64,000 bases of DNA from Spirochaetota bacterium (lineage in GTDB: Bacteria; Spirochaetota; UBA4802; JAFGDQ01). Both the position numbers and the translations under genes were made by a program. Where the stretch lies: contig JAFGSG010000023.1 in NCBI GenBank assembly GCA_016934735.1, forward strand, positions 1 to 64,000, read 5' to 3'. Position 1 is the first letter of the stretch. Each line of letters opens with the position of its first letter. The notes below the pieces were generated by a model. It saw only the letters and a list, made by a program, of their open reading frames with translations, ran no database searches and had not been told where the DNA came from. Of the stretch, positions 441-60,947 are shown in pieces.

Positions 441-459
441 CGGATAAGATTAAAATCAG

Positions 460-664
460 GAGCTATCTCAAAATGATCTATTTTATGAAATAATTGACAA
501 CGAATTGAAATATACAACAAAATTTTTTGCGGAATCAGATCTTCCTGGCTGGCTTTTTATGATTTTTGGAGTTTTTGCATCAGTTCTGAAAGGCGTCCTA
601 AAAAATTTTATTTTATATTTCAATTCATAAAACTGAATAACTTATTTCTGAGATGACTTGAAGA
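460..664 (-). repeat. Composite repeat copy 1: ATCTCAAAA-type ends enclosing hairpin-core element (core 502..626)
   Basis: Left agctatctcaaaa and right ttctgagatgacttga termini; arms gaattgaaatata (502-514) / tatatttcaattc (614-626); core matches copies 2-4 on the minus strand. Confidence 0.75.
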
Positions 665-9479: not shown

Positions 9480-9588
9480 GGTTACCTCTAAAAATTAAAT
9501 ATTGATGTAACCATTGGGAACAAATCAAGGTAAAAATCAGGTTTTTTATTTGAAGAACCAATAAAAACTCTGATTTTTAGAGGTTCCC
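9480..9588 (+). mobile_element. MITE-like element copy A, flanked by TTAT direct repeat
   Basis: Ends GGTTACCTCTAAAAAT... / ...ATTTTTAGAGGTTCCC; TTAT at 9476-9479 and 9589-9592; inverted second copy at 59723..59830. Confidence 0.8.
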
Positions 9589-12969: not shown

Positions 12970-13136
12970 GGAATAGATCCGAAATCAACTGAGCCATGTT
13001 AATTGCATTTAATCTTTACTAATCATAATTATATTCCTCTTGAAAAGCAGCACACAGCATTTATATTAAGTCGTATAAATTTTAAGATTTTCGAAAATTT
13101 TATTGTATTTAATTAAAAAAACGTTGAATTTAATTA

Positions 13137-13339
13137 CAAGTTATCTCAAAAATAATTTTTGTCTTTAAATAAATTGAAAAACATTACAAAATTTTTGAGG
13201 ACGCCTTTCAGCCCTGATGCAAAAGCCCTCAAAGACATAAAAAACTAACCAGGAAGGTCTGATTCCGCAGAAAATTTTGTAATGTTTTTCAATTTAAAGT
13301 CAGCTATTTATGCAAAATCATATTTTTGAGATGAGTTCT
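13137..13339 (+). repeat. Composite repeat copy 2: ATCTCAAAAATA ends enclosing hairpin-core element (core 13171..13295)
   Basis: agttATCTCAAAAATA ... TATTTTTGAGATgagtt; 25/25 bp inverted arms 13171-13195 / 13271-13295. Confidence 0.85.
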
Positions 13340-13388
13340 AATATTAAAAATTAATTAGATTTAACAATAATGGTTAAGTAAAAAAATA

Positions 13389-15126: not shown

Positions 15127-15450
15127 GTGAACAAAAATAATAAAATTACCTGCCTTCGCTGCGGCGCCTGCTGCCACGTGGATATAATAGCATATGTCTC
15201 TCCGGAGGATATTCAAAGATGGGAGGGAGAGGGCCGTAATGATATTATAGCCAGGATAGGCGGCGGTGAGGTCGTCTGGCTTGGCGACAGGATTGTAAAC
15301 AAGTACGGCGAAAAAGTGAAAAATTGTGTTTATCTTAATTATGACGGCACATCATTTTTCTGTGAAATATACGAGACACGCCCTCTGGTATGCCGCAATT
15401 TCCTTCCTGGCTCCTCCGAGCTGTGTCCTCAGTACTACCGTAAAGAATAA
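15127..15450 (+). CDS. YkgJ-type cysteine cluster protein
   Basis: GTG start; CLRCGACCHVD ... CVYL ... CEIYETRPLVCRNFLPGSSELC. Confidence 0.8.
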   Translation: MNKNNKITCLRCGACCHVDIIAYVSPEDIQRWEGEGRNDIIARIGGGEVVWLGDRIVNKYGEKVKNCVYLNYDGTSFFCEIYETRPLVCRNFLPGSSELCPQYYRKE

Positions 15451-15460
15451 ATTATTTGCT

Positions 15461-15591
15461 GATAAATCGTAATAAATTACAAAATTTTTGAGGACGCCTT
15501 TCAGACCTGATGAAAAGGCATTCGAAAACATGAAAAACAGGCCAGGAAGGTCTGATTCCGCAGAAAATTTTGTAATTTATTACGATTTATC
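15461..15591 (+). repeat. Hairpin-core repeat copy 3 (28 bp perfect arms)
   Basis: GATAAATCGTAATAAATTACAAAATTTT (15461-15488) is the exact reverse complement of 15564-15591; core matches copies 1, 2 and 4. Confidence 0.85.
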
Positions 15592-15640
15592 ATTAATCAT
15601 ATAATTGAATTTATAATTTTGGGATGACTTCTAGTTAGCA

Positions 15641-15702
15641 ATGTATTCCAATTTATAGTAAATCATTTACATGGATCTATAATTTTGAGATGGATTGTAG
15701 AA
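15641..15702 (+). repeat. Partial short ATCTCAAAA-end element (S3), abutting the right end of copy 3
   Basis: TGTATTCCAATTTATAGTAAATCATTTACATGGATCTATAATTTTGAGATGGATTG resembles 58956..59029. Confidence 0.55.
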
Positions 15703-24564: not shown

Positions 24565-24773
24565 GCGGCTTTGGCGCGGACTATCCGCTAAAATCATATG
24601 GCGGTCTTGGTATACTTTTATAATTATATTATAAGCTTGACAATATGCATTTTTTAGTTATTACTATCTGTAGAAGCTTTCTTAAATATTCAGCTGCCGC
24701 ACTCAATAAAAAATGAGTTATGAAAAAGCACTAGTACGGCATTACATTAGAAATTGTGAGCAAAATGAATTTT

Positions 24774-24900
24774 TAAATTGAAATACATTACAAAATTTTT
24801 GAGGACGATTTTCAGGCCTGATGCAAAAGCTCTTTGAAACAAGAAAAACTAACCAGGAAGATCTGATCCCGCAGAAAAGTTTGTAATGTATTTCAATTTA
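24774..24900 (+). repeat. Hairpin-core repeat copy 4
   Basis: TAAATTGAAATACATTACAAAATTTT (24774-24799) matches the reverse complement of 24875-24900 at 25/26; core matches copies 1-3. Confidence 0.82.
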
Positions 24901-25066
24901 TGGCATTATTAACCATAAAAAACAAATGCGACTCTGTACTAGTATTTAAATTCATTTTTGTTTTTAAGTCTTTAAGGGTATATTTAAAAGATTACAATTG
25001 ATAATTATTTAATTCTATGCCCAATGATCATCTTGTAATATACAGACTGTAAGGATAAAAGAAAAT

Positions 25067-37749: not shown

Positions 37750-38510
37750 TGAGAATAATATCGATGTCCAATAATAAGGGCGGTGTAGGCAAAACAACCA
37801 GCACTGTTAACATAGCCGCATGCCTGCAGAAATTAGGGAAAAAGGTGCTGGTCATAGATCTCGACCCACAGGCTCAATCGACATATCATTTTGGAATAAG
37901 CCAGAACAGATTCGATCAGCCTATAAAAATAGATAAAACAATTTATGATGTAATAAAGGGGGAGTCATCTTATAAGGAGACAATAATTGACAGAAACGGA
38001 ATTCATGTTCTGCCTTCATGCCCTGACCTTCGCGGAATAGAGTTTATTGCATTGCCTGCGAAAGAATTTCTTTTGCGCGATTCGCTTGAGACTTTAAACG
38101 GATATGATTTTGTTTTGATAGATTGTCCTCCGTCGCTGGGTGTACTGACACTGAACGCGCTTTGCTTTTCAAACGAAATCTTTATCCCTCTGCAGGTCCA
38201 GTTCCTTCCGTATCACGGCATGTACAATTTATTTGAAGCTGTTGATATGGTAAAAAAAAGGCTGAATAAAGGTATAAAAATATCCGGTATTATAGGCACA
38301 ATGTATAACTCGAGAAAAGCGATCAACAACGAAGTTATTGAGGAGATAGAGAAGCGGCTGCCCGGAAAACTGTTTAAGACACTTATACGGGAAAACGTGG
38401 CCCTTCAGGAAGCTCCGAGCTGGGGCAAGACGATCTGCGAATATAAACCCAACAGCACCGGAGCTGACGACTATATGGGACTTACGAAAGAAATTCTGGA
38501 ACGCGATTAA
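37749..38510 (+). CDS. ParA/Soj-family ATPase
   Basis: MSNNKGGVGKTTSTVNIAACL; VLVIDLDPQAQST. Confidence 0.93.
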   Translation: MRIISMSNNKGGVGKTTSTVNIAACLQKLGKKVLVIDLDPQAQSTYHFGISQNRFDQPIKIDKTIYDVIKGESSYKETIIDRNGIHVLPSCPDLRGIEFIALPAKEFLLRDSLETLNGYDFVLIDCPPSLGVLTLNALCFSNEIFIPLQVQFLPYHGMYNLFEAVDMVKKRLNKGIKISGIIGTMYNSRKAINNEVIEEIEKRLPGKLFKTLIRENVALQEAPSWGKTICEYKPNSTGADDYMGLTKEILERD

Positions 38511-39586
38511 AGATTCGGGATGTTCTTTATCCGCGATTCTTCTTTTTTCTTTTCTTCTATTTTCTGTACCCGCTGTTTTTCCTGCTCTTCAGCTATTTTT
38601 GCCTGCTCATCAGCTATCCTTGTTCTTTCTCTCTGCTCGTCTTCCATTCTTTGCAGGCGTAATCTTTCAGCCTTTAACTGCTCTTCCTTCTTTTTATGTT
38701 CTTTCTTTTGTTCTTCTTCCAGAGCTGCCTTTTGATCTTTTATTTCTTTTTCTTTAATTTTCGTTTCTTCCCCGATCCGGATTTTTTCTAACTGTTCAAT
38801 TAGTTCAGTTTCATATTCTTTATTGTCTTTTATTTCTTCAGCCGGCTTTATCTCTATGCCGATTTCTTTTATTTCATTTTTAATCTCTTCGTTTAATGTG
38901 TTGTCGATTTTAATTAATTTTACTTCTTCTTTAATGGCAGCTATTTCTTCTTTATGTAACGTGACTATTTCAATTTCTTTCTTTTTTTCTATAATTTTAG
39001 TAATATCTTTCTGATCAATTTGTACTGTTTTGTCAGGCTCCACTATTTTTTCTATTTTCTCTATAATTACATCATCTTTAACTGGATTAACTTTTACCTC
39101 ACCTTTCAATACATCTACGCGCGATATTCCTTTGTTGGATGAAACACGGAAGGCCGTACCGCGTACAGCAGCCACGGATGTAGAGGTCTTAACCTGCAGT
39201 TTCGAGTCTTTAAGCAGTTTCGATACTGTGACAAATACTTTCCCTTCGTCCATTTGGAGAAGTGTTTCATCCGCGTTTTCGGTTGATAACAGACGGGCAA
39301 CATCCATACTGGTATTTTCACTTATCCTGATTATGCCGCTGTCTTTATATCTGATATCAATAATGGATAGTTTGCCGGTTTTAATAATGCTGTTTTCCTT
39401 TATCGCATAGCCTGCAACAGGTGTGGCTGTTACATCGCCAGACTGTATTGTTACATCTCCCAGTACGGTCTGAACTGTCAGGATAGAAGAGTCCTGTGTT
39501 AGTTGTGTTTCCTTTTTGCAGGAATATGCAATGAATAGCGATATAATAACACACAATATTAACACATTTTTATTTTGCTTTAACAT
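38507..39586 (-). CDS. FecR-domain lipoprotein with long charged C-terminal coiled coil
   Basis: Lipobox IAYSC; FecR-like TSTSVAAVRGTAFRVSSNKGISRVDVLKGEVKV; Glu/Lys/Gln-rich tail. Confidence 0.85.
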   Translation of the reverse strand: MLKQNKNVLILCVIISLFIAYSCKKETQLTQDSSILTVQTVLGDVTIQSGDVTATPVAGYAIKENSIIKTGKLSIIDIRYKDSGIIRISENTSMDVARLLSTENADETLLQMDEGKVFVTVSKLLKDSKLQVKTSTSVAAVRGTAFRVSSNKGISRVDVLKGEVKVNPVKDDVIIEKIEKIVEPDKTVQIDQKDITKIIEKKKEIEIVTLHKEEIAAIKEEVKLIKIDNTLNEEIKNEIKEIGIEIKPAEEIKDNKEYETELIEQLEKIRIGEETKIKEKEIKDQKAALEEEQKKEHKKKEEQLKAERLRLQRMEDEQRERTRIADEQAKIAEEQEKQRVQKIEEKKKEESRIKNIPNL

Positions 39587-39659
39587 ATAAAGTTTACCTC
39601 TGAAATTGAAAAGAAAATGTTGCAATAGAATAGAAATTCTGCTGCATCCATATGCATTT

Positions 39660-43029: not shown

Positions 43030-43190
43030 TTATCGGGACCTTGTATGTTTATCAAAGGATCTAATGCTTTACATTTCTTTTAGCAAACGAATTAGAGAGT
43101 GATTCCATTTGGATAATCCTTTCAGTTACAATAACTTTAAATTAAAACTAAAGTGATTGGTTTTGCCAACTATTAATTAAATTTTATTAT

Positions 43191-43282
43191 AGCTTATCTT
43201 AAAAAATAAGTTTTTTTTGATAGAAATGGAATATATTATACTCAGTAATTCATGGAAATTTATATTTTTGGGATAGCTTCTG
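43191..43282 (+). repeat. Short ATCTCAAAA-end element S1 (no hairpin core)
   Basis: agcttATCTTAAAAAATA ... ACTCAGTAATTCATGGAAATTTATATTTTTGGGATagcttctgg; matches 58956..59029. Confidence 0.65.
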
Positions 43283-43514
43283 GTTTTTCTGTGAAATAGC
43301 AGCAGTTTTTTGATATTTTACAATAATTGGATAGTATTTTCCTCTTCGATATTTTGCTATTTTTACGAAAATTTTTTGAAATTCAATTTGACTTATTGAA
43401 AAGCTTTGTTTGATGTTCCTATCAATCAATATCAATCATGCACGTGAGATTCAGATTATTTCTTAAAAGAGGCATTTACTCTATTGTTCATTTATATAAA
43501 AACAGAGGGTCTTT

Positions 43515-46450: not shown

Positions 46451-46539
46451 AAAATATTCATAAAATCGCCATGAGGAATGAACCCCTGAGCCCCTAAGAA
46501 GGCTGCGGCTACAACGACCCGGACTGATTTTTACACAAT

Positions 46540-46605
46540 TTTTGTTTTACAGCAACAACCTGCTTATCAGTAATAATATCCCTGTTCCCCACCATCAGGA
46601 TGCCA
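46540..46605 (-). pseudogene. tRNA-dihydrouridine synthase (dus) fragment
   Basis: LGILMVGNRDIITDKQVVAVKQK compared with IPLIGNGDIITDEQAVAVKQK of the intact dus; nucleotide similarity to about 60298-60360. Confidence 0.6.
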
Positions 46606-46813
46606 AGATAATGGATTCCTAAGATGCAAAAAGCAGGAATAATAATTTTCACGATATTGCCGGAGAATTGTTTATCATTATATTCTGCCAAGGACTGGCA
46701 TTTAGCTGAATATAAAAACAATATTTTACAAAATGTTTCGAATCTTGAAAAAGCGGAAATAATAATTAAAGAATTCTCCTTAAAAAAAATGAATAAGCCT
46801 TTTAAAACATTCT

Positions 46814-54958: not shown

Positions 54959-55008
54959 CAGAAAGCATTTTTTAAATACATAATGCTGCAATTCCAGATG
55001 AAGTCTGA

Positions 55009-55164
55009 TTTATAGCAACAGCCTGTTCATTAGTAATAATATATCCGTTCCCTATAAGCGGGATGTTCAGGCGTTGTTTCAATTCCCCGAACAGGGCATG
55101 CCGTGCCGGACGTTTGAACCGGCCTTCAGCGGAACACGCATGAAAAATAATTGCATCGCTTCCA
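55009..55164 (-). pseudogene. tRNA-dihydrouridine synthase (dus) internal fragment
   Basis: GSDAIIFHACSAEGRFKRPARHALFGELKQRLNIPLIGNGYIITNEQAVAI closely matches the intact dus; nucleotide similarity over about 155 nt to 60300-60456. Confidence 0.85.
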
Positions 55165-58799: not shown

Positions 58800-58955
58800 A
58801 TGTTTTCAGTTTTATTTATTTAAAGTTTAAGTGCCGCAAGAAATCAATTGTGTAAATATCGGGAATACTATATTTATATTGCCTAATGTTTAAAAATAGA
58901 CTTGATATTTTAAACAATGTCAATATTATTTTAAGATTGTTAAACCTGTTTGCAT

Positions 58956-59029
58956 GTTATCTCAAAAATATGTATTCCATTTTATACTCAGTAATCCATG
59001 AAAATTTATTTTTTTGATATGGCTTCCGG
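58956..59029 (+). repeat. Short ATCTCAAAA-end element S2 (no hairpin core)
   Basis: gttATCTCAAAAATATGTATTCCATTTTATACTCAGTAATCCATGAAAATTTATTTTTTTGATATGGCTTCCGG. Confidence 0.65.
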
Positions 59030-59722: not shown

Positions 59723-59830
59723 GGGAACCTCTAAAAATCAGGTTTTTTATTGTTTACTCAAATAAAAAACCTGATTTTACCTTAATCAGTTCCCAATGGT
59801 TACATCAATATTTAATTATTAGAGGTAACC
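59723..59830 (-). mobile_element. MITE-like element copy B, flanked by ATAA direct repeat
   Basis: Reverse complement nearly matches 9480..9588; ATAA at 59719-59722 and 59831-59834. Confidence 0.8.
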
Positions 59831-59945: not shown

Positions 59946-60947
59946 TTATAAAATCACTTCGGAGTATTGCCTTTTTGGTTTTTCAAAGAAGTTGCTGATA
60001 ATTGCGAGCGTATCATCTGCCGTTTTTGCTTTGTAAATATTACCTTCAAACGTATGTCCGGATTCCAGACCTATACACAGCCAGCGGGCAAACAGCTTTG
60101 TCCTGCGAAGCATTACATCTGTTCCAAATTCATTGTCCATATCCCGGACAAACTGCATAAAAAAATCCCTCTTTTCTATCCATGACATGACAGGTTGGCT
60201 GAGTGGTTTTCCGGTAAGCCTGTACGCTATTGCACGGAATATGCCGGGTGTCACCAGAGCACCCCTGCCTATCATTACGCCATTCAGTCCGTATTTCTGT
60301 TTTACAGCAACAGCCTGTTCATCAGTAATAATATCTCCGTTTCCAATCAGCGGGATGCTAAGACGTTGTTTCAATTCACCGAACAGGGCATGCCGTGCCG
60401 GCCGTTTGAACTGGTCTTCACCGGAGCGGGCATGAAAAATAATTGCGTCGCTTCCGGCATCCTCTGCCTGTCTGCAAAAATCATAAAGCACCTCAAGGTT
60501 GTGCCGTACGCCAGCCCTTATCTTAATGCTGAAGTGAACAGCCGGGAATGATTTCTTCGCAGCTGTTACAATAGCCGCGACCCGCTCAGGATAATCCATC
60601 AGTGCAACACCCACGGGACACATCCCTGATTTCCGGATCTTTGCCCTCGGGCAGCCGCAGTTCAGGTTGAATCCTGCCGGATTATACTCGAGCATTTTCT
60701 CCATACCGGCAACTATAATGTCCGGGTCTCCGTGCATCAGATTATAATATAAAATTTCGCCGGGATTAACGGGCAGATTTTCTTTCAAATTGGGTCTTTT
60801 TTTTAGAACCGAATTTGGATTGATTGCAGGGCTGAAATAAGCCATGCGTGTGCCAATCGGCAATGTAGCGTTGATCAAACGTCTGAACACAGGATGGCTC
60901 AGATTATCCATTGGCGCGAAACAATATGGGAAAGAAGCGGGAAGCAT
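59946..60947 (-). CDS. dus: tRNA-dihydrouridine synthase family protein
   Basis: FAPMDNLSHPVFRRL; FNLNCGCPRAKIRKSG; FSIKIRAGVR; LIGNGDIITDEQA; GVMIGRGAL. Confidence 0.92.
   Translation of the reverse strand: MLPASFPYCFAPMDNLSHPVFRRLINATLPIGTRMAYFSPAINPNSVLKKRPNLKENLPVNPGEILYYNLMHGDPDIIVAGMEKMLEYNPAGFNLNCGCPRAKIRKSGMCPVGVALMDYPERVAAIVTAAKKSFPAVHFSIKIRAGVRHNLEVLYDFCRQAEDAGSDAIIFHARSGEDQFKRPARHALFGELKQRLSIPLIGNGDIITDEQAVAVKQKYGLNGVMIGRGALVTPGIFRAIAYRLTGKPLSQPVMSWIEKRDFFMQFVRDMDNEFGTDVMLRRTKLFARWLCIGLESGHTFEGNIYKAKTADDTLAIISNFFEKPKRQYSEVIL

Follow-up and report, generated by a model that had tools for sequence, protein, structure and literature searches.

Hairpins of a Spirochaetota genome as the centre of a probable MITE superfamily with arms likely maintained by template switching

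The window studied here, the whole stretch of 64,000 nucleotides, contains four intergenic hairpins whose outer arms differ from copy to copy and yet are complementary within each one, which raises the question of whether they represent a structured RNA or a transposable DNA. The four hairpins described in the original prediction were all found again, with arms of about 25-29 bp that paired perfectly or nearly so (Table 1), and the single A/T difference reported between copies 2 and 4 was indeed compensated in the opposite arm. When folded as single-strand DNA, the z-scores against chance were -10.1 for copy 3 and -6.6, -6.1 and -3.2 for the other three.

Table 1. Hairpins and associated elements located in the window.
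Feature	Coordinates	Strand	Remarks
Hairpin copy 1	502..626	-	27-bp arms, 25 paired; divergent copy, 132.7 bits
Degenerate A-end element around hairpin copy 1	457..662	-	Ends TCAAGTCATCTCAGAAATA and AGGAGCTATCTCAAAATGA
Hairpin copy 2	13170..13296	+	Perfect 26-bp arms (26/26), 75-nt core; 153.9 bits
Complete A-end MITE-like element holding hairpin copy 2	13135..13340	+	206 bp including both TA; TIR-A at 13136-13154 and 13321-13339
Hairpin copy 3	15460..15592	+	Perfect 29-bp arms (29/29), A3 subfamily arm sequence; 152.3 bits
Right flank and A-type terminal repeat of the copy-3 element	15593..15633	+	TIR-A 15614-15632 minus; aligns with L019
Right half of a second A-type element (A2 subfamily), immediately after copy 3	15637..15699	+	TIR-A 15680-15698 minus; matches the right flank of L015/L017
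Hairpin copy 4	24774..24900	+	26-bp arms, 25 paired
Complete C-end MITE-like element holding hairpin copy 4	24732..24941	+	210 bp including both TA; TIR-C 24731-24749 and 24924-24942
Core-less A-end element (both ends and one arm half)	43188..43283	+	TIR-A matches
Core-less A-end element (both ends and one arm half)	58954..59029	+	Both A ends present

The hairpin turned out to lie inside a larger element that has terminal inverted repeats of its own, a context overlooked in the original prediction. The anatomy could be read directly from the copies, most of which are flanked by such repeats: a typical one has a core of about 75 nt between two complementary arms of 26 bp; outside each arm follow a flank, short on the left, then a terminal inverted repeat and, at the very end, TA, and the intact element measures approximately 200-230 bp. 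The TA at each end usually lies in the context Y-TA-R and, taken alone, points to a putative target-site duplication. Three end families were distinguished, A (TA-CAAGTCATCTCAAAATTA; 71 sites, against 2 with the reversed-pattern control), B (TA-GAGCRATTNACNTTTG; 17 sites vs 0) and C (TA-GTACRGCRTCACATTT; 18 sites vs 1), and one and the same hairpin is common to all three. As in MITEs, the elements are short, non-coding, multi-copy and dispersed, and carry terminal inverted repeats. Reduced forms were also detected. The left end of the copy-3 element is unrecognisable beside the stop codon of an ORF that ends at 15450, and copies of about 70 bp exist that are joined at TTTTTGAG, a sequence present in both the A end and the core foot. 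One-armed copies also occur outside the window. In three of these, L055 (C55:13601), L070 (C39:6611) and L054 (C78:29305), homology ends at the arm tip AAAATTTT, and they look as if they had been broken or deleted at the arm/core border.

The covariance-model search of the genome and its relatives proposed in the original prediction was carried out with a model trained on 36 copies. It showed that the four hairpins exist as described but belong to a family of about 51 in this one genome (opposite-strand mirror matches not counted; lowest score 75 bits), or 52 if a short-core relative, L113 (58 bits), is included. A 95-nt query comprising the core and arm tips retrieved at least 40 copies by blastn. 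No hairpin was detected in relatives, 58 of them searched by blastn and 44 with the covariance model, the genus being represented by this genome alone. The element had no blastn match among plasmids and phages, and a 20-base exact core motif, searched in 85,000 species genomes plus viral contigs, gave two isolated single matches, none of them viral; these, on a Paenibacillus contig and a Thiobacillus contig, were judged to be due to chance. Within the genome, 48 of the 49 copies examined avoided ORFs of at least 90 aa and one overlapped such an ORF. Contig ends of the assembly (91% complete, 150 contigs) carry near-identical copies, where recent repeats would be expected to have interrupted the assembly.

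The arms had been regarded as unrelated, locus-specific sequences. They are rather diverged forms of one arm, with the consensus TAAATTGAAATACATTACAAAATTTT, that fall into subfamilies, with L113 as the exception. Over 46 aligned copies, 94.8% of the cells were standard pairs and double changes were present at 22 of the 37 pairs. None of 500 shuffles reached any of the five covariation measures, sliding the pairing partner by one base abolished the signal, and the matching of arms within copies exceeded all 10000 permutations (0/10000). In a core-only tree, the arms cost 96 and 110 changes separately and 139 jointly, which corresponds to about 67 concerted changes, an approximate count since cores have been exchanged between copies.

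Furthermore, direct comparison of close relatives by flank scoring revealed that the orientation of the core relative to its flanks has been reversed at least four times. In the B family, L018, L023 and L010 are opposite to L032, L036 and L038 (flanks of L023/L038: crossed 101 vs parallel 12). Two cases were found in the A family, where L001 and L005 are opposite to L002 (L001/L002: crossed 82 vs parallel 37), and L019 and the minus-strand copy of L112 are opposite to L028 and L033 (L019/L028: crossed 61 vs parallel 16). In the C family, L024 is opposite to L039, also with crossed flanks. One of these cases lies in the window: L001 corresponds to copy 2, and its sister L002 diverges from it by 5% in the flanks and 4% in the core, with the core flipped. 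The flipped cores of L019 and L028 are likewise 5% apart. Since the arms (26-29 bp) are shorter than the usual assembly k-mers, these flips are unlikely to be assembly artefacts.

Covariation as strong as that seen over the 46 copies, together with stable folds, would ordinarily speak for a transcribed hairpin under classical compensatory evolution. Nevertheless, a structured RNA is considered very unlikely. A single-strand RNA helix tolerates G-U but not A-C, and among the arm mismatches G-U was no commoner than A-C (22 vs 19, p 0.76); changes by transversion on both sides were frequent. The strand of the core relative to co-directional genes was random (13 vs 16), the cores were flipped among close relatives, and a match to a known Rfam family, named beforehand as grounds for giving up the idea of a new family, was found neither at the gathering score nor at a relaxed threshold (best E 0.24). 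In addition, the hairpins lying in the scanned region had no terminator-like site, and a terminator function was rejected. Reasoning also led us to discard a box C/D k-turn in the core, since its would-be boxes, TGATG and CTGA, stand in the wrong order. Of the two readings put forward, an RNA with a conserved structure or a hairpin of DNA recognised by a transposase or recombinase, the RNA was not supported, whereas transposable DNA was, by the TA-flanked ends, the terminal inverted repeats and the dispersed near-identical copies.

The covariation therefore looks like a phenomenon of DNA and not of RNA, given the parity of G-U and A-C, the lack of gene-strand bias, the core flips and two further observations. 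No homogenisation was seen in the terminal inverted repeats of these copies, which sit further apart than the arms (14.5 within vs 14.7 between copies, p 0.76). Moreover, the outer arm was dominated by double changes and the part near the core by mismatches (69:30 vs 12:39; cells not independent), a gradient expected if repair synthesis were primed near the loop and ran outward, although a sequence constraint on the inner arm and arm tip would produce the same.

The hairpin is probably the centre of a non-autonomous, non-coding MITE superfamily whose arms are maintained by template switching. Its copies would probably have spread through the trans action of DDE-type transposases on Y-TA-R targets, a step that we infer for an enzyme presumably lying outside this assembly. 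Once inserted, the palindrome may provoke template switching, in which the growing strand would turn back on itself or move over to the other arm. By copying that arm, it would match the two arms again; if both switches fell inside the arms, the core would be inverted; and the swapping of cores between copies could have the same origin. Template switching between inverted repeats is reported to homogenise the arms and also to invert the spacer (PMC8604942); it has further been shown to give rise to, and preserve, apparent compensatory changes, and can thereby mimic compensatory evolution (PMC8794818). The marks by which tracts of template switching were recognised in the former study, homogenised arms and an inverted spacer, were both found here, and because they constitute the published signature, a MITE maintained by template switching is favoured over a structured RNA. 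Correction of this type had been raised in the original prediction as a non-selective caveat; it is most likely what produced the covariation, being the best account of it, and it also predicts the inverted cores.

No autonomous transposon with these ends was found in this assembly (91% complete, 150 contigs), in which the DDE_3 and DDE_Tnp_1 families were searched. A transposase of the DDE_3 (IS630) type is absent from it, and the single, degenerate DDE_Tnp_1 (IS4-type) element has ends unrelated to A, B or C. A pair of A ends 1.35 kb apart on contig 119 was considered as a candidate autonomous element and rejected, as by eye it holds sigma-factor and FecR-like genes and no transposase.

A different function for the arms would be that the extruded hairpin is a selected DNA structure, which a transposase, a recombinase or a structural protein must recognise, so that dead copies lose pairing. 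Decayed copies (the plus-strand copy of L112, L120 and L123) did show more arm mismatches (Spearman 0.34, p 0.02), an excess that could reflect selection on active copies and not blind correction, and an inner 8-bp stem includes an R-Y covarying pair. A further argument comes from L113 (L113:250-410, contig C20:41049-41210), which has A ends, 27-bp arms that are wholly different and a core of less than 40 nt, and still retains the GAGGAC and TTCCGCAG boxes of the core foot; L113 may be a related but distinct family. However, elements ending in TA and terminal inverted repeats suggest a double-strand DDE mechanism, for which a hairpin is not needed, the orientation of the core is free, and mismatches near the core that became fixed in subfamilies persist. 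A selected hairpin was thus judged unlikely.

The recurrence of inversion in at least four subfamilies, and the conservation of the arm tip AAAATTTT, could also be explained by a dedicated system in which the arms are recombination sites and a site-specific recombinase inverts the core. This was rated as highly improbable: the outer arms diverge between copies in a way that recombinase sites do not, those of L113 have almost nothing in common with the rest, the 75-nt core contains no evident promoter or gene, and no linked recombinase was noticed. The presence of AAAATTTT on both sides of the core also allows the core to be seen as a tiny insertion, with an 8-bp duplication, into a palindromic MITE whose ancestral site would be ACAAAATTTTGT; insertion in either orientation, repeated over time, would fit the flips and the exchanges of cores. 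Such an origin is hardly to be expected, as the flipped pairs are nearly identical in the core (4% for L001/L002, 5% for L019/L028), which fits inversion better, and a perfect palindrome without a core was not found.

Besides being inverted, cores and ends were directly seen to be exchanged. The copy L033 has A3 arms and flanks and a B-type core (5% from L038 and 19-20% from A3), and L035, L129 and L030 appeared by eye to be A/C chimeras that combine an A end with a C end opposite. Two minus-strand copies, L112:2505-2693 and L119:281-470, differ in flanks and arms despite having in common, at an identical core position, a GC-rich hairpin-forming insert of about 57 nt, GGATGTCTTAGTGCCGGGTGCGGGCAGGAAGCCCGTTTGTACCCGGC. 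This insert had no match in Rfam and can be read as a second level of nesting or as a core exchange. Together, these examples indicate that families trade cores, ends and inserts, at junctions that lie within or next to the arms. Template switching alone does not explain one hairpin in three end families. A self-correcting and invertible hairpin might serve as a recombination hub through which unrelated MITE ends are exchanged; repeated template switching, or insertion directed by the hairpin, would then carry it as a mobile module into several transposon families. We regard this idea as rather doubtful.

Other features were observed in the window. A further repeat family, about 100 bp long (9487-9585 and 59725-59829, in opposite orientations) has the ends GGTTACCTCTAAAAAT and ATTTTTAGAGGTTCCC; one copy contains an internal AAATCAGGTTTTTTATTTG hairpin, and the family looks like another MITE. 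Three diverged direct repeats of 71-160 nt, 70-88% identical, are located at 46538-46608, 55001-55163 and 60293-60455. On the minus strand, a lipoprotein-like ORF (38507-39625) resembles the Leptospira LipL45/Lsa33/Lsa19 models, with scores well below the curated cut-offs, a similarity that hints at a host among the Spirochaetota. Among the genes of the host, LptB suggests a lipopolysaccharide-bearing cell and a FliS-like ORF, recognised by eye, a flagellated one.

The roughly 50 copies constitute a natural set. Covariation like theirs is commonly taken to prove an RNA structure, yet here DNA accounts for it better, and the copies provide a worked warning for covariation-based RNA discovery. 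They may also serve as a gauge of bacterial template switching, both of arm correction and of spacer inversion. In addition, the recombination of MITE ends and centres as modules bears on the origin of new MITE families.

The superfamily, which comes from one lineage and has a shared, invertible and exchangeable hairpin, is apparently undescribed, and several known systems resemble it in part. REP/REPIN elements with RAYT, and derivatives of IS200/IS605, are dispersed short hairpins with a conserved foot tetranucleotide and without terminal inverted repeats or TA ends. The elements found here are also dispersed short hairpins, but they add terminal inverted repeats and TA ends, and their alignment contains no conserved foot tetranucleotide, so a hairpin of the REP/REPIN or IS200/IS605 type was rejected. 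In chloroplast genomes, small loops between hairpin arms are inverted at single-locus plastid sites with no net change in the arms; the sequence between the arms also inverts here, but in a transposable family. Prokaryotic MITEs mobilised by insertion sequences, such as RUP, Correia/NEMIS, Nezha and QMITE (PMC10969869), are similarly AT-rich, of about 200 bp, intergenic and present in dozens of copies per genome, with terminal inverted repeats, TA ends and a strong fold. The present superfamily differs from them in that three unrelated end families have one central hairpin, the core flips and is swapped, the homogenised repeats are the arms and not the ends, and a partner transposase was not found in the assembly. 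The BOX, RUP and SPRITE elements of Streptococcus pneumoniae (PMC3049150) are also modular, structured and interspersed, with MITE features, but they show no sequence match, and the modules here are ends and an invertible core instead of repeated boxes. A parallel in behaviour to the arms and cores described here comes from the inverted repeats altered by template switching (PMC8604942, PMC8794818), where homogenised arms and an inverted spacer also occur together, repeatedly and in parallel. Those are short genic repeats, with spacer inversions of a few bases in the first of the two studies, whereas here the process would act on a dispersed mobile family with 26-bp arms and a core of about 75 nt.
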